Shown in pieces: positions 7,678 to 22,152 of a stretch of 64,000 nt of DNA (positions within the stretch are counted from its first letter, which is position 1; the number at the start of each line of letters is the position of its first letter). The notes beneath the pieces are model-generated. The model was given only the letters and a program-made list of their open reading frames with translations. It was not told the origin of the DNA and did no database searches. This stretch comes from Streptomyces cynarae (lineage in GTDB: Bacteria; Actinomycetota; Actinomycetes; Streptomycetales; Streptomycetaceae), in assembly GCF_025642135.1 (NCBI RefSeq), contig NZ_CP106793.1, positions 3,910,001 through 3,974,000 on the forward strand, given 5' to 3'. A program made the position numbers and the translations under genes.

Positions 7678-10194
7678 ATGAATGTGTCGTGGCCGCAGCG
7701 CCTGGGTCTGGGGGACCGGGTACGGCTCGGCGGTCGTGCCTGGGTTGTGTCCAGGGTGGCGCTCGGAGTCGTTGAGCTGACGGACCCGTTCGGCGATGTG
7801 CGCCAAACGGGCATCCCGGAGCTGGTGCGAAGCGCGGACTTCGACGTGCTGGAGCAGGGTCCTCGATCCTCACCGATTCGCGGCCCGTCGGCGACCGAGG
7901 CGTCGCTGGAGCGAGCCAGATGGTGGGAACGCCACATCGTGGAAGTCATCACCGGGCTGCCTTTCGGCGCCGATCCCGAGAACGTGCCCCGAGCCGAGTA
8001 CGACCCGGCGGTGCGTTCGCTGCGAGAGAGGGAAGAAGCCAAGGCGTCCGAGCTCAGGGCGGCGGGTGTGGCGAGTGCCTCGGCGCGTACCGTGCGACGC
8101 CGCCGTCAGCACTACCAGGTATGGGGCCTCGAAGGGCTGATCGACGGGCGAGCCGTCCGAGAGCCGACGCCTGGTTCTCGGCAAGATCCGCGTGTATTGA
8201 AGGTGCTCCTGTCCCTGGTCTCGGACGACGCCCGGCAGGGGCGGACGTATTCGGCGGAGCACTACCGCCAGGCCACGGCAAAAATGCTGAAGTCCCTGTA
8301 TGGGAGCGGAACCGTAGCGCTGCCATCCCGGTCGACGTTCCAGCGGCTTGTGAACGACCTCGTCTCCTGGCAGGGCCGGGCAGAAGGCATTCCGGTGGTC
8401 GGCGCCGCGGGCATCCGGCTGTCCCGGCCGGGAGAGCGGGTCCATGTCTCCACCGTCCCTCTCGCATTGCCCTCGCGACTGGCTCATCTCGCGAAGAGGC
8501 CACTGCTGATGACGGTGGCGATGGACGAACTGACCTGGAGCGTCTGTACGTTGATGGTTTACTCCTCCCGGCAGTCTCTCGACGCACCCTTGCTGCTGGC
8601 GCGCCTGTGCAATCCGCCCGTTCTGCGGGACGCCGAGACACACAGCAGGGGTCCGGAATTCCGGGCAGTACCACTGATCATTCCTGAGTCGCTGGTGCTC
8701 GACCGGCACCCGCTGCGTCGTCGGCGCATCTTCATGGACGCATGTCGGGAGCTGGGCATCCACGTCGGCGTACACCATCCCTCGATGAAGTTGGAGAGCG
8801 AGCGGATCACGACACGACTCGTCACACTCCTCAACGCCGAGCTGGCCAACTTTGGGGCTGACTTGCCTTCCGACGAGGCAGCGCTCACCAGCCGGCTTCA
8901 GGTGCGGGCCGAGCAGTGGGTGGAGTCGGTCTGGCAGCACCAGCCCCAGTGGGCGTTGCAAGAGGTGGCCGGCGGCTGGGAGCAGCCGACGCCCAGCTCA
9001 GCCTACGAGGCCAGCGTCGCCCGACTGGGCTGGGTGCACCTTCCCCCGGGCGAACGGTTGGCCTTGGGTCTGTTGCCGAGCGTGGAACGGCGGGTGGGCG
9101 CGCACGGAATCGAGGTAAGAGGACGGCGCTACGACAGCGCGGAACTCCGCCCGTCAGGGTCTGCCACCGAGAGCACACGCTCCGTCCCACCTCAGTTGGT
9201 GCAGACGCGGTTCGACCCGCACGACATTCGCCAGGTGTGGGTGGACACTGAAACCGGAACATGCCTGCGCATCCCGCTGGCCCGGAAGAACTCGATCAGC
9301 CGCCCTCCCCGGCATCGCGGCAGAGACGCAGTCGGTGTCGGTCTGAGCAATGGCCGTCCTTCGAGCAGTGGCGTTCCGGCTCCGTCTGCCTCGCTGGATC
9401 ACACGCAGGAACGCCTGGCCTATCACGCCCGGCTCCCGGTTCTGCAGACACCGTTCCTACGCGAGGTGCTGAAGCTGGGAGACCGGCTCACCGTGCTGAA
9501 CCGTACCGCGGTCGGTGGCCGGCACGGACTTCTGATCACCGGACCACCCCGCAGTGGGAAGACGACGGCGCTCCAGGAGCTGGAGCGGCGCTTCACAGGG
9601 CCGCTCAATGAGGGCCTTTGTCGCGGCCGGGTCGTCCGCCTCCGGCTGCATCCCGCCGACAACGCGCGCACGGTGCTCGAGAAGCTGGCTGACAGCTTGG
9701 ACCTTCCTTCTCTTCCACGGTCGGTGAGCGCGGCTTCAGACGCAGCGCGCGAGGCTCTGCTGGCGTCGGGTACCGCAGTGGTTCTGGTCGACGATGCCTT
9801 CTCCGCCGGCTTGCGAACCACCTTGAAAGACAGCCCAGTCGATGCGCTGTGTTTCGTCGCAGAGCAGGTGCCGACCACCTTCGTGTACACAGGGACGGAG
9901 GAGGAGGGACCCCTCACCGTGCCCGGGACGCTTGCGGGCCGCCTGGCCCACTTGGCGGCGACTCCCATGCCGTACGGGAAGGACTGGGTACGTCTCGTCG
10001 AAGATCTCGACGATGATCTCCGTCTACGTCAGCAGGAGCCTGGTGCTCTGGTCCGGTTGGCGTCGGTGCTGCACACCAGAACCGGCGGCTGGGCAGGCAC
10101 CCTGGCCCACCTCGTGCGTTCTGCCGCCATCGAGGCGATCCTCACCGGACGTGAGGAAATCACCGAGCAGGACTTCGACCTCATCATCGTGTGA
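7678..10194 (+). CDS. TnsB/Mu-type integrase fused to TniB/TnsC-like ATPase
   Basis: An 838-residue two-part protein; its ATG follows GAGGAAGG. The N-terminal part is a Mu/TniA/TnsB-like transposase: a helix-turn-helix stretch (RTVRRRRQHYQVWGLEGLID, about 137-156), an RNase-H-like core and a Mu-C beta-barrel region (about 455-535). Within the core, the first catalytic Asp of the family is replaced (HVSTVPL, Ser258), while the later acidic residues are kept (VLDRHP, Asp342; ESERIT, Glu375). The C-terminal part is an AAA+ ATPase with Walker A GPPRSGKTT (622-630) and Walker B VVLVDD (701-706), like TniB/TnsC. In known Tn7/Tn5053-type elements these are two separate proteins. With one catalytic residue missing, strand transfer is doubtful. 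It may be domesticated or act in regulation or target capture. No TniQ gene follows. Confidence 0.8.
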   Translation: MNVSWPQRLGLGDRVRLGGRAWVVSRVALGVVELTDPFGDVRQTGIPELVRSADFDVLEQGPRSSPIRGPSATEASLERARWWERHIVEVITGLPFGADPENVPRAEYDPAVRSLREREEAKASELRAAGVASASARTVRRRRQHYQVWGLEGLIDGRAVREPTPGSRQDPRVLKVLLSLVSDDARQGRTYSAEHYRQATAKMLKSLYGSGTVALPSRSTFQRLVNDLVSWQGRAEGIPVVGAAGIRLSRPGERVHVSTVPLALPSRLAHLAKRPLLMTVAMDELTWSVCTLMVYSSRQSLDAPLLLARLCNPPVLRDAETHSRGPEFRAVPLIIPESLVLDRHPLRRRRIFMDACRELGIHVGVHHPSMKLESERITTRLVTLLNAELANFGADLPSDEAALTSRLQVRAEQWVESVWQHQPQWALQEVAGGWEQPTPSSAYEASVARLGWVHLPPGERLALGLLPSVERRVGAHGIEVRGRRYDSAELRPSGSATESTRSVPPQLVQTRFDPHDIRQVWVDTETGTCLRIPLARKNSISRPPRHRGRDAVGVGLSNGRPSSSGVPAPSASLDHTQERLAYHARLPVLQTPFLREVLKLGDRLTVLNRTAVGGRHGLLITGPPRSGKTTALQELERRFTGPLNEGLCRGRVVRLRLHPADNARTVLEKLADSLDLPSLPRSVSAASDAAREALLASGTAVVLVDDAFSAGLRTTLKDSPVDALCFVAEQVPTTFVYTGTEEEGPLTVPGTLAGRLAHLAATPMPYGKDWVRLVEDLDDDLRLRQQEPGALVRLASVLHTRTGGWAGTLAHLVRSAAIEAILTGREEITEQDFDLIIV

Positions 10195-10488
10195 GCCGTC
10201 ATGTCCGGCAGCGGCGTCCGGCGGCTGGCGCAGTGCCGCAGCTCTGGAAACCAGGTTTTGTGAACAAGCGAGATTGCGGCCGTCTCTTAAGACCAACATC
10301 GGTGTATATCCCATGGCACAACCCAACAACGTGTTCTGCCCTTTCCCAAAGGAAGCCAGGACCGCAAAAGGCCGGGCCAGGCAAGATGCCGATCACGGCC
10401 GGTCCATCCCCTGCCCACGTCTGACCATGTCTGCCCTCCTCTCGGGATGGGCAGACGGCCTGCCTCATCCCCCCTTACTGTGGCGCCC
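10195..10488. other. Intergenic region with inverted repeat
   Basis: About 290 bp without a supported gene. It carries the perfect inverted repeat GTCTGCCC (10429-10436) / GGGCAGAC (10449-10456) about 35 bp before the next start, a possible operator for that gene. Confidence 0.5.
10429..10456. promoter_or_regulatory. Inverted repeat before coiled-coil gene
   Basis: Perfect 8-bp arms GTCTGCCC and GGGCAGAC with a 12-nt spacer, 33 bp upstream of the ATG at 10489. It may be an operator or a leader hairpin. Confidence 0.4.
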
Positions 10489-11100
10489 ATGAGTCAGCAC
10501 GAAGGCCACCCGCCCTCGGCAGACTGGGTGGCTCAGGAAATGGAGCAGATGCTCCGAGAGTGCAACGCGCTGATCGAGTCCCATGACGAGCAACTGGGCC
10601 GCCTGCGTGCGTCGATCGCCGCCATCGAGACTGAACGAGAGCGTGCATGCACCAACCGGGACAGTGCTCGGCAGGTACTGGAAACGCTGCGCGCGGCCGT
10701 CTTGGAAGGCCAGCAACTGCGCGCCACTCGGACCCAATCTGCCAACCCTCGCATGCGCGTGGTCCCGGACGTCGTAGCCTCCGCCTCTTCGGCCGCGGGC
10801 GACTCCGGGGACGATCCGACCGACGGGGTGCCCCCGTCCGGCAATCCGGTCGTCCTCATCGAAGGCCGGCGTTCCGTGGCGATCATGGAAGTGATCTCGA
10901 CCGACGGCAGACGCAACTGGAGCGTTCGGGACGTTACGGAGGCCCTCGGTGAACCCCTTAAAGCCATCCGCCGCAATCGCTCGGTCCTTGAAAGTCTTCA
11001 CGACCGAGGCGTCCTGCTGAAGGAGGAGGTTCCTGGCGGCAGAGGGACCACGAAGAAGAAGGTCTTCTATCGGCTCGCGGCCCCGTGGCAGGCAGCTTGA
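10489..11100 (+). CDS. Coiled-coil protein with C-terminal winged helix
   Basis: A 203-residue protein of no family I recognise. Residues about 12-75 are a charged heptad-rich helix (AQEMEQMLRECNALIESHDE, then LGRLRASIAAIETERERA), predicted coiled coil. A Ser/Gly/Pro-rich linker (about 85-120) follows. The end (VAIMEVISTDGRRNWSVRDV to FYRL) looks like a winged helix with a basic wing (RGTTKKKVFYRL). The layout suggests a dimeric DNA-binding or bridging protein. It follows the integrase-ATPase fusion on the same strand after a 294-bp gap, so functional linkage is inferred only. Confidence 0.65.
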   Translation: MSQHEGHPPSADWVAQEMEQMLRECNALIESHDEQLGRLRASIAAIETERERACTNRDSARQVLETLRAAVLEGQQLRATRTQSANPRMRVVPDVVASASSAAGDSGDDPTDGVPPSGNPVVLIEGRRSVAIMEVISTDGRRNWSVRDVTEALGEPLKAIRRNRSVLESLHDRGVLLKEEVPGGRGTTKKKVFYRLAAPWQAA

Positions 11101-11324: not shown

Positions 11325-11729
11325 TTAGCGGGTTCGAGGGCTGCTTTCCTCGCGCTCCGCCGTTTCCACGTCTCGCTGCCGATTGATCCGCTCGGGCTGA
11401 GGCTGGGCCCGTTTCCCGGTCTCGTCCAGCGGCCACTCCAGATGATCGGGCCAAAGCCGTTCCCCGAGGGCCCCTTCCAGGCTGGCCACCGTCAGCAGGT
11501 CCGGCCATACGGTGCCGGCCAGGACGTTGGCGATGACCTGCCGGTTGACATCACTCACCTGGGCCAGTGCGTTGGCGCTGATGTTCTTCCGTTCCATGGC
11601 CTCCGCGAGTGCGCGGGCGACGGCCTGGGCCACCTGCGCCCCGAGGTGGTGATCCATCACGGCGTATGGCCAGTCGCCGTCGTCGATGTATTCGAACGGC
11701 TTCTTGGCACGTCGCGTTCCTCCGGGCAT
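11325..11729 (-). CDS. Small XRE/Cro-like HTH protein
   Basis: A 134-residue protein starting MPGGTRRAKK. The central part contains an HTH (ALAEAMERKNISANALAQVS, then NRQVIANVLAGTVWPDLLTV) like Cro/C1 regulators, preceded by an acidic YIDDGDWPYAVMDHH segment that recurs in plasmid- and phage-type actinobacterial regulators. The C-terminus is highly charged. It is the only gene on the minus strand in this block and lies divergent to the following winged-helix gene with about 150 bp between them. It may repress that gene or itself. Confidence 0.7.
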   Translation of the reverse strand: MPGGTRRAKKPFEYIDDGDWPYAVMDHHLGAQVAQAVARALAEAMERKNISANALAQVSDVNRQVIANVLAGTVWPDLLTVASLEGALGERLWPDHLEWPLDETGKRAQPQPERINRQRDVETAEREESSPRTR

Positions 11730-11881
11730 GTGAACAGTGTGACGGAGGGGCCGCCGAGGTGCGCCCACCCAGCCAGCATGCTACTTGAATGGCATGGGCT
11801 TGTGAGAGAGAACCAGCAAGCACACTCGCGGGGCCTTTCGCATGTCCTCACGAGACGAATCGACGATGGAGGAGTGCGGTC

Positions 11882-12932: not shown

Positions 12933-13859
12933 GTGGCCAGAACGAAGATCCGAAATGCTCTGCTGTCCGTGGCCCGCGTATGGCAGAGGCGTGCCACCGC
13001 AGGAGAGCTCAGCGTCGAGACCGTCACCCTCTACATCCAGGTCATCGAACGCCTCCTGCGCTTCGCCGAGGCGCAGGGCGTGACCTGTCTGGACGACATC
13101 ACAGCCGAGCTCGCCTCCTACTTCATCGAGGCCCCGGGGAATGATCGCCACCGGGGCGTCATCCTCACACCCGCCGGTGGCACCCGCCGTCAACGCCGCT
13201 CCGCGCTCGAAGCGCTCTTCACGGAGGCACGGGCGCTCGGCCTCACCAAGGCGGCCCCGCTCGTCGACCTTCCTCCGATCCCCCGCAGCCCGCGCAAACC
13301 AGGGAACGAACTGACCGACCCTGACATGCAGTTGCTCCGCTTCCACGCGGAGCGCGGCATGCCGGCCACCCGCCACGCCGCCCTTCTGGCCCTGCTCCTG
13401 GCTGGGCTGCACACCGCAGAGATCGCCGCCGCTACCACCGATGACCTCGACCTGACCGCAGCTGAGGTATGGACCAACGGTGCCACCCGCACGCGCAGCC
13501 GTTGCTGCCGACTCGATGAGTGGGGCGTTCGGGTGCTGCGGCTACGCCGCACCCACCTCCTGCACGCTACCGAGACCGGCCCTCCGCCACGCCTGGTCAC
13601 CGCGGCTTCCTCCGCCTACCGCTCCCAGGCGAGCGTCTGCAGCGGCTTTGGGGACATCGCCCGTCGCAGCGGGCTGTCCACGGGGCGGCGCAAGGTCGAG
13701 CCCAAGGACGTCACCCGCTATGTCGCCCGGAAGATCCTCCACGAGACCGGTCAGCTGTCCGAGGTCGCCCGCCGCCTGGGACTGTCCTCTCTGGACGCAG
13801 CCGCTGGCCTGGCCGGACACCGGTGGAACCCAGAAGGCGAAGGTGGCGAAGCGGCGTGA
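12933..13859 (+). CDS. Degenerate tyrosine-recombinase-like protein
   Basis: A 308-residue protein. GTG 12933 is preceded by GGGAAGG at 5 nt, better than the ATG at 12903. The N-terminal about 110 residues resemble a core-binding SAM-like domain (VTLYIQVIERLLRFAEAQGV). The C-terminal part has the outline of the phage-integrase catalytic fold (AALLALLLAGLHTAEIAAAT, then KDVTRYVARKILHETGQLSE and VARRLGLSSLDAAAGLAGHR). The usual catalytic Arg I is His160, only Arg262 of the H-x-x-R pair remains, the GH motif reads GL, and no nucleophilic Tyr is at its place. Cleavage activity is therefore unlikely. Its stop overlaps the GTG of the DDE transposase gene (GTGA), so the two are translationally coupled and probably act together. 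Confidence 0.65.
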   Translation: MARTKIRNALLSVARVWQRRATAGELSVETVTLYIQVIERLLRFAEAQGVTCLDDITAELASYFIEAPGNDRHRGVILTPAGGTRRQRRSALEALFTEARALGLTKAAPLVDLPPIPRSPRKPGNELTDPDMQLLRFHAERGMPATRHAALLALLLAGLHTAEIAAATTDDLDLTAAEVWTNGATRTRSRCCRLDEWGVRVLRLRRTHLLHATETGPPPRLVTAASSAYRSQASVCSGFGDIARRSGLSTGRRKVEPKDVTRYVARKILHETGQLSEVARRLGLSSLDAAAGLAGHRWNPEGEGGEAA

Positions 13860-15382
13860 GCACTCCCAAAAAGCGCCCCCGCTGCGCCGGTACAAAGAGT
13901 AAGGAACGCCCCTGGCTACTCGGTCCGATCCCCGACGATGCCTTCGGCTCTGCCTCCGACCTCCCGCCACCACCCGGCCCCGAAGCGCCACCAATCGCGA
14001 TCGACGAGCGGTTCGAGCACCTCCTGAGCAATCCCGACCTGTTCGAGGCCGTCCGGCAGGCTCTGCCGGCCCGCGAACAGAACAGCGTCGGACGCCCCCC
14101 GACCCACCCTCCCTACATCTACTTTCTCTTCCTCTGTGCGATTTCCGTCTTCGGCTCCGCACGAAGCACGGCACGTCACCTCCAGCGAGAAATGTGGTGG
14201 AACGCGGTACGCAAGGCTGTAGAGAAACACCTCGGCCCTGAAGAAGCCGAGTCCCTTAAAGCTGTCGGCCCCAACAGAAGTCAATGGAATTACTTTTTCA
14301 AGAACCAACTCAAGGAACACGTGAATGCCGTACGCGACGCAAGTCGGGATTTATGGATCCAGCAGGCACTGGACATGGGGCTAATGACGGAATCGAGACC
14401 CCGCGGAAGCTGGATCTATCCGGATCGCGACCAGGTAATCCACGGTGACGCGACGGTTGCAGCGCCGCCTTCAAGCCAGACTCACCACGAGACCGTAAAC
14501 AAGGAAACCGGCGAAAAACGCCGCCACCGCGTGGACGAGGACGCCAGCTACACAACCGAGGGTGGAGGCCGTAGAGTATATGGGAATAAATTCCTCTCCC
14601 TTGCTGTCCGTGCGGCAAACACCCCTCACAGCCGGGTGATCCTGGCTCTGGAATCAATCCGCCACAAATCGAGGAAACGTGACCCCGAACGCGATGACGA
14701 GGGGACAGCCGTGGTCCGCCTCGTTCGCCTTCTCCTTAGTAAAGCCCCTGGGATCCGCGGGTTCACATACGACACCGCCCTGCGCGGCGTCCACCGGGCG
14801 CCGCTGATCTCAGATGGAATCGTCGTTTTCACTCCGCAGCATGGCGGTATCCAGCCGCACCCGATCCAACGATATGAGCACGGAAAGTGCCGTCACGACA
14901 TCTACGCCGTCGAAGGCCGGGCCTGCGAACGCCATATCACCGTTGACGGCGAGACGTACTACGCCCCCCTCGCGGTTGAGGAACTGGAACGCCGAAAGCA
15001 GAAAGCGACCCGCTTCTATCATCGCCTCACCATCCCCTGCCCTAGTGGCCACCACGAACTCCGCATCCGCGTGGACGAAACTCAAGCGGACCGAGAAATC
15101 GATCCGTCCACCAGAAAGCAGCGGTTCAATAGGGCCGAGCACCTGAGGCAAGTCCCGCCTGACACACCTGCGGGCCGACGCCTCAAGGGGTTCCGACAGG
15201 ACAGCGAGTCAAACCACTCACGCTTCGACCAGCGCTATCCGCATAAACGGGTTCCCGCCTACGGCGCCAATGCCGCCCTGCTGATCTACATCGGCTACGC
15301 CTGGGTCAACAATTCCACTGCCCGAGCCGTGGCCCAGAGCACCAGGGGCCTGGACCAGCCGCCGGCCGACCTCGCAGCCTGA
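13856..15382 (+). CDS. DDE transposase-like protein
   Basis: A 508-residue protein starting at GTG 13856, overlapping the previous stop by 4 nt. An N-terminal helical region (about 50-170; FEHLLSNPDLFEAVRQALPA) precedes an RNase-H-like core with candidate catalytic residues Asp198 (IHGDATV), Asp306 (TYDTALRG) and Glu451 (QDSESNHSRF). It ends with ANAALLIYIGYAWVNNSTAR, a helix typical of the end of IS1182/IS4-like transposases. About 140 residues lie between the second Asp and the Glu, containing Cys and His residues (CRHDIY, RACERH). It belongs to no IS I can name. Inverted repeats bounding it could not be found by eye. The coupling with a degenerate recombinase is unusual. Confidence 0.65.
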   Translation: MSTPKKRPRCAGTKSKERPWLLGPIPDDAFGSASDLPPPPGPEAPPIAIDERFEHLLSNPDLFEAVRQALPAREQNSVGRPPTHPPYIYFLFLCAISVFGSARSTARHLQREMWWNAVRKAVEKHLGPEEAESLKAVGPNRSQWNYFFKNQLKEHVNAVRDASRDLWIQQALDMGLMTESRPRGSWIYPDRDQVIHGDATVAAPPSSQTHHETVNKETGEKRRHRVDEDASYTTEGGGRRVYGNKFLSLAVRAANTPHSRVILALESIRHKSRKRDPERDDEGTAVVRLVRLLLSKAPGIRGFTYDTALRGVHRAPLISDGIVVFTPQHGGIQPHPIQRYEHGKCRHDIYAVEGRACERHITVDGETYYAPLAVEELERRKQKATRFYHRLTIPCPSGHHELRIRVDETQADREIDPSTRKQRFNRAEHLRQVPPDTPAGRRLKGFRQDSESNHSRFDQRYPHKRVPAYGANAALLIYIGYAWVNNSTARAVAQSTRGLDQPPADLAA

Positions 15383-15623
15383 CGCCTACCCGCCTCCCAT
15401 CCCACCCACTCGCCCAGCCCAGCCCAGCGACACTCACTTCCGACCTGACCTGCCTCGCAGCAGCCAACCTGACCAACCTTCCGGCCGACGCGGCACCAGC
15501 CGCTACACTGTGGGCGGTGGCACGGCTGCAGGCCAGCTCTGCCATCGCAACACTGCCGGGAACGCGTCTGACAAGGTCGCCTAATTGGGCACCAATTTCA
15601 GACACGTTTTCCGACAGATCCCT
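15383..15623. other. tRNA upstream region, no gene seen
   Basis: About 240 bp between the transposase-like gene and the tRNA. No coding region is evident. The tRNA promoter is expected here but no strong -35/-10 pair stands out. Confidence 0.45.
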
Positions 15624-15696
15624 GCCTTCGTAGCTCAGGGGATAGAGCACCGCTCTCCTAAAGCGGGTGTCGCAGGTTCGAATCCTGCCGGGGGCA
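15624..15696 (+). tRNA. tRNA-Arg (CCT anticodon)
   Basis: A 73-nt cloverleaf: acceptor GCCTTCG pairs with CGGGGGC, with the D-arm TAGCTCAGGGGATAGAGCA, anticodon stem CCGCT/AGCGG, loop CTCCTAA (anticodon CCT, reading AGG) and T-arm GCAGGTTCGAATCCTGC. CCA is not encoded. The 3' half is duplicated at 18619 and 22116, marking it as an integration target. Confidence 0.97.
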
Positions 15697-15697
15697 C
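15655..15697 (+). repeat. Attachment-site repeat, copy 1 (in tRNA-Arg)
   Basis: The 43 bp from the anticodon loop to just past the tRNA 3' end are repeated at 18619-18661 with one mismatch and, over their last 37 bp, at 22116-22152 with two mismatches. This is the classic att core of elements that integrate into tRNA 3' ends. Confidence 0.88.
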
Positions 15698-18618: not shown

Positions 18619-18661
18619 CTCCCAAAGCGGGTGTCGCAGGTTCGAATCCTGCCGGGGGCAC
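18619..18661 (+). repeat. Attachment-site repeat, copy 2
   Basis: Matches 15655-15697 in 42 of 43 positions (anticodon loop T to C). It is not part of a tRNA, since the 5' half is absent. It separates the lyase segment from the FG-GAP segment. Confidence 0.88.
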
Positions 18662-22115: not shown

Positions 22116-22152
22116 AAGCGGGTGTCGCAGGTCCGAATCCTGCCGGGGGCGC
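22116..22152 (+). repeat. Attachment-site repeat, copy 3
   Basis: Thirty-seven bp match the end of tRNA-Arg (15661-15697) with two substitutions, in the T-loop and just past the acceptor. It marks the right border of the second tandem segment. Confidence 0.82.

Follow-up and report, generated by a model that had tools for sequence, protein, structure and literature searches.

Enzymes of the Tn7, Mu and Tn5053 types produce a 5-base-pair (bp) duplication of their target, and those of the IS4 type a 9-bp duplication. In Tn7-like and Tn5053-like transposons, the integrase (TnsB or TniA) and the ATPase (TnsC or TniB) are two chains. For Tn6022 and Tsy, the comM site is reported to be chosen by TnsF, a tyrosine recombinase that has lost its activity (Faure et al. 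2023, PMC10293859), and CRISPR-associated and other Tn7-like elements that home to tRNA genes are described in PMC11406308 and PMC10293859 as using TniQ/TnsD or a guide RNA. We analysed 64,000 nucleotides (nt) of Streptomyces cynarae (hereafter the window, positions 1–64,000), which encode an 838-amino-acid (aa) fusion of both proteins. On sequence evidence, the fusion gene is carried by a transposon of approximately 49.9 kilobases (kb) located at tRNA-Arg(CCT). We assign a probability of about 0.6 to the reading that the fusion serves this tRNA-homing transposon as a non-catalytic accessory, a DNA-binding ATPase that acts in target capture or control. Both halves resemble TnsB/TniA and TnsC/TniB in fold and sequence, in the order integrase then ATPase; in contrast to those proteins, the window protein is one chain with a decayed catalytic triad, and Walker B is mostly D-D in its family. 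The transposon also differs from Tn7-like and Tn5053-like elements in its target duplication of 8 bp, and no TniQ was found among the six window open reading frames scanned with Pfam.

The integrase half (approximately residues 1–534) has a TnsB-like fold with a C-terminal Mu-type domain, and the ATPase half (approximately residues 575–838) has an AAA+ fold in which Walker A and the arginine positions are all present. An earlier note on this DNA had proposed such a single 838-residue chain, with Ser258 at the first catalytic position and Asp342 and Glu375 retained. The single chain is borne out by sequence, fold and the existence of a natural family, and the three residues by alignment and an AlphaFold model. 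The intact aspartate-aspartate-glutamate (D-D-E) triad expected of an active TnsB/TniA/MuA transposase is absent from the window protein, and His344, two residues after Asp342, replaces the D-x-G glycine found in active relatives. The proposal that both Walker motifs are intact stood for Walker A and fell for Walker B, where Asp706 replaces the catalytic Glu. At this second Walker B position, fused proteins have D in 27 and E in 7 rows (n = 34), and separate TniB proteins have E in 50, D in 6 and K in 1 (n = 57).

The fusion is a member of a real family, found mainly in Streptomyces. Ser258 was expected by the earlier note to be conserved among single-chain homologues; instead, the first catalytic column of 35 lettered rows holds D in 29, Y in 2 and S, A, G and Q in 1 each, and the nearest relative (P0002, 87% identity to the window protein) has Ala there. 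At the second catalytic position 30 of 36 rows retain D, and at the third 34 of 35 retain E. The complete triad is present in 24 of 34 rows, so that the situation named in that note as speaking against it, a triad in every homologue, does not hold: 10 rows lack the full set. The first Asp was lost at four places in the tree (P0001 with P0002, P0021, P0026, and P0029 with P0030), as read by eye from a printed tree in which 26 rows are ungrouped. Judged from these alignments, Ser258 is lineage-specific and one among several routes of site decay, and the earlier interpretation as a whole is therefore only partly supported.

As controls, we used 67 unique separate TniA proteins drawn from 87 loci. 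All 67 keep D, D and E and the Gly two residues past the second Asp; in contrast, just 5 of the 36 fused rows have a Gly there. The ratio of catalytic-domain to DNA-binding-domain conservation was 0.68 in the fused family (30 proteins, 374 pairs; the fragmentary rows P0020, P0021, P0023, P0028, P0035 and P0036 were left out), the catalytic domain being the less conserved, and 1.35 in separate TniA (67 proteins, 1552 pairs), where it is the more conserved. The ratio of nonsynonymous to synonymous substitution rates (dN/dS) of the fusion was 0.31–0.40 in eight pairs. Taken together with the loss of the triad, these results indicate a gene that is maintained but whose catalytic site appears dispensable. 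They support constraint on the ATPase P-loop and the DNA-binding part, and favour a role without DDE chemistry of the chain's own, as part of a mobile element. That the gene is simply decaying without function is very unlikely: both active sites were lost piecemeal, the copy in genome G202 is split between two frames and the whole cassette is lost in G234, but the dN/dS values, the full-length open frames in most relatives and a stronger conservation of the DNA-binding part than the controls show argue against it.

P0023 consists of the N-terminal part and Walker A region of the fusion joined to the C-terminal end of the transposase dde described below, as if the intervening genes had been deleted. 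Among 149 plasmid records, none had at least 60% identity to the fusion. We found no publication on a TnsB-TnsC/TniA-TniB fusion or a comparable transposon in the literature covered, mostly titles and abstracts, with subscription papers and preprints outside that coverage.

The earlier note suggested that the fusion may be a domesticated factor. Domestication as a host factor is not supported; the fusion gene lies towards the right end of a large transposon that homes to a tRNA, beside a conserved gene block that encodes a small protein (cc), a helix-turn-helix (HTH) protein, a possible winged-HTH protein, a dead tyrosine recombinase (tyr) and a Tn5-fold DDE transposase (dde) (Table 1). The element spans contig 1, 3875710–3925623; its left end falls outside the window and is given in contig coordinates. 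Its right end abuts the tRNA gene, and the insertion is exactly at the tRNA 5′ start. Shared homology among cassette loci stops at tRNA-Arg(CCT), which lay within the fetched stretch at 11 of 15 loci around 508-aa dde relatives and not in the other four. Genome G104 holds two stacked elements; at their junctions the inverted ends match (GGGGCTTGTGCGAAA) and the first eight tRNA bases stand on both sides. A left end of the same type as that of the window element was seen in a stacked pair in G083. Search patterns from these ends, which included the duplication, located the left end of the window element (contig 1, 3875702). Left ends were located in 16 of 24 genomes with the 508-aa dde protein; a match in G069 was discarded as far from its tRNA, and reversed-pattern controls gave one match each in G141 and G257.

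We assembled 14 end pairs, 13 of them on one contig, with element lengths of 21–102 kb (arithmetic from the coordinates of those 13); six carry the fusion. The 5-bp duplication expected of a Tn7-like transposon was not found at tRNA-Arg; instead, all 14 pairs have an 8-bp duplication whose left and right copies are identical, the left-end patterns having contained the duplication. In G150 it is GCCTCCGT, and the tRNA of that genome begins likewise. The inverted ends match at 12–16 of 18 positions (best of three offsets, and partly built into the search patterns).

Eight of the 14 elements have no fusion among the matches listed, yet they show the identical 8-bp duplication, and three of these (G005, G075 and G083 #2) have window-type ends. 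This suggests that the fusion is not required for insertion. Since insertion appears to need no fusion and dde adjoins the right end, dde is the simplest candidate and probably the catalyst of the element. It has an RNase H fold and Tn5-like architecture with D, D and E present, and its nearest solved structure is Tn5 transposase; in contrast to Tn5/IS4-type elements, those described here are large, have a fixed tRNA target and carry extra genes. At least nine fused genes were identified in 295 Streptomyces genomes among the matches listed, six in tRNA-Arg elements and three near tRNA-Leu(CAG) (G209, G099 and G202). The tRNA-Leu members have a gene pair of 329–369 aa and 574–590 aa in the position that tyr and dde take in the tRNA-Arg elements. 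G099 has a long inverted copy on another contig with no matching duplication.

These data bear on two other explanations. The fusion could be a working transposase in most relatives, broken only in some lineages such as that of the window. We regard this as unlikely: the retained triads, the TnsB-like fold and the candidate 5-bp repeat (CAAGT) that flanks the G209 element near tRNA-Leu are consistent with it, but the rarity of the glycine past the second Asp, the reversal of catalytic-domain constraint across the whole family and the fusion-less elements with the same duplication argue otherwise. Alternatively, a TniA-TniB pair of a Tn5053-like element may have been captured and fused, and may now act against other elements as a regulator or as an immunity or interference factor, with no part in the transposition of the element that carries it; we consider such a passenger quite unlikely. 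The existence of fusion-less elements, the crowding of the site with stacked elements and tRNA 3′-end repeats, the faster evolution of the fusion relative to neighbouring genes and the presence, on contig 2 of the same genome, of a separate TniA/TniB/TniQ-like set that is intact would all suit a passenger; however, the six tRNA-Arg members all have the fusion next to the transposition genes, and the three tRNA-Leu members have it close to a comparable pair.

In the accessory reading, which we favour, dde would cut and join the element ends, and the dead tyrosine recombinase would read the tRNA start by analogy with what is reported for TnsF. The fusion would bind DNA through its TnsB-like N-terminal half, and its TnsC-like ATPase would serve to capture the target, to link the selector with the transposase, or to regulate transposition. 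As an accessory rather than a catalyst, its RNase H site would have been free to decay, to Ser in the lineage of this strain. The likeness to TnsF is one of analogy: that protein too is described as a tyrosine-recombinase domain that has lost its activity and belongs to a targeted transposon (PMC10293859). The present case differs in that the gene of the dead recombinase is paired with one for a Tn5-fold DDE transposase, and in the site of insertion, the 5′ end of a tRNA. A tRNA gene as fixed site is shared with the tRNA-homing Tn7-like and CRISPR-associated elements described in these papers; in contrast to them, the cassette showed no TniQ/TnsD or guide RNA, and the point of insertion falls within the first tRNA bases.

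More tentatively, and with less than even confidence, we propose a new type of targeted transposon. In it, a dead tyrosine recombinase that reads the site and a non-catalytic single-chain TnsB-TnsC that acts as the DNA-bound ATPase in target capture would together direct a Tn5-fold DDE transposase to the start of a tRNA gene, within its first bases. The right end may in this case also bear a spare promoter from which the essential tRNA continues to be transcribed, so that elements can stack at one site. If true, a transposase and its ATPase have been turned into a non-cutting targeting part of an element driven by an unrelated transposase, and 21–102 kb of DNA are placed by protein alone at one exact site with an essential tRNA preserved. 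TnsB and TnsC on one chain would offer a fixed-ratio system to study how the ATPase relays target information.

Several observations weigh against the accessory reading. Some fused members may still be enzymes, since 24 of 34 rows retain D-D-E, and ATP hydrolysis by the fusion may be weak because Walker B is D-D in 27 of 34 fused rows, a substitution also seen in 6 of 57 separate TniB proteins. The parallel with TnsF is an analogy, and E451 of dde is conserved at 90% or more in a 41-row alignment without being invariant. The ends of the window element match at 13 of 18 positions, an imperfect match. Left-end patterns held the duplication and part of the end, so that most pairs were selected for both; only the left ends of G104 #2 and G083 #2 were known before such patterns were used, and the pattern search found no left end in 8 of 24 dde-carrying genomes. 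The three tRNA-Leu members among the nine fused genes are without proven ends, and the candidate left end of G209, 22 kb off, has the candidate 5-bp flanking repeat, which would suit TnsB chemistry.

Table 1. Features of the fusion gene, its cassette and the right end of the transposon (window coordinates)
Feature	Position	Strand	Basis or remark
Fused TnsB/TniA-like integrase and TnsC/TniB-like ATPase, 838 aa	7678..10194	+	sequence and fold
Ser258 codon TCC, first catalytic (Asp) position	8449..8451	+	alignment and model
Asp342 codon, second catalytic position	8701..8703	+	alignment
Glu375 codon, third catalytic position	8800..8802	+	alignment
cc, small cassette protein	10447..11100	+	weak coiled-coil model matches only; likely start in-frame ATG 10489 (by eye)
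Cassette HTH protein	11325..11768	-	HTH_3, 25.7 bits
Cassette protein, possible winged helix	11789..12709	+	TrmB 12.9 bits, below cut-off
tyr, tyrosine-recombinase-like, without catalytic residues	12903..13859	+	profile matches
dde, Tn5-fold DDE transposase, 508 aa from GTG 13856, Asp198/Asp306/Glu451	13856..15382	+	fold and alignment
TACACT, -10-like box at right end	15504..15509	+	resembles box upstream of native tRNA-Arg genes
Right end of transposon, inward AGGGATCTGTCGGAAAAC	15606..15623	-	left end at contig 1, 3875710
Right copy of 8-bp target duplication GCCTTCGT, tRNA nt 1-8	15624..15631	+	left copy at contig 1, 3875702-3875709
tRNA-Arg(CCT), target gene	15624..15697	+	first 8 nt duplicated

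The tyr and dde genes overlap by 4 nt. The fold of tyr was assigned through weak profile matches alone (XerA, E 0.0021; XerC models). It lacks the set of an active tyrosine recombinase (catalytic Arg, HxxR and Tyr): in 26 of 26 aligned rows the Box I Arg is replaced by H, N, G or F, and no conserved Tyr was found near the C-terminus. None of six plasmid records reached 60% identity to dde; records H2–H6, from Mycobacterium, are distant relatives of 26.7–28.0% identity annotated as hypothetical protein.

The right end may supply a replacement promoter for the tRNA, as its putative -10 box resembles that upstream of tRNA-Arg in element-free genomes. An element end of Tn7 type at TGTCGG, seven bases before the tRNA, had no partner within the window and was superseded by the inverted ends found later. 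G234, which carries the same species label, was considered as an empty site and rejected as a deletion derivative, because it retains the left chromosomal flank of the window element (96.7% up to 3875508) together with cargo and right-end remnants, the cassette being gone. None of eight candidate tRNA-Arg loci matched the G000 flank as a clean empty site; G172 (L232) was the sole candidate with long matches to left flanks, those of G190 and G104. At the locus of G013 (L229), chosen as element-free, an end-like sequence, CACAAGCCCC, stands immediately before tRNA-Arg, so that counting by dde probably misses some elements. Close to its left end, the window element carries adjoining cargo genes for an AAA ATPase and a subtilase (S8) (L235:6789-10422; contig 1, approximately 3877788–3881421).

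The window contains the tRNA-Arg 3′ end three times in direct orientation, at 15661–15697, 18625–18661 and 22116–22152 (0 of 100 shuffles). They bound two stretches of approximately 3 kb downstream of the tRNA, with no obvious integrase in the list of open reading frames there. G104 has eight such matches over approximately 53 kb. We rejected these repeats as a cassette array of the system: of the 295 Streptomyces genomes, 282 contain at least one copy, and many of these have several copies and lack the cassette. Since they are genus-wide and often without the cassette, they probably reflect ordinary stacked integration at the tRNA 3′ end. In G104 (L196–L198), two recurring sequence types of approximately 150 bp precede the 3′-end copies, as if two island families use the site. 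Contig 2 of the S. cynarae genome, a 308 kb replicon, carries genes for TniA-like (721 aa, D-D-E by eye), TniB-like and TniQ-like proteins in a row (L005:5985-9975).
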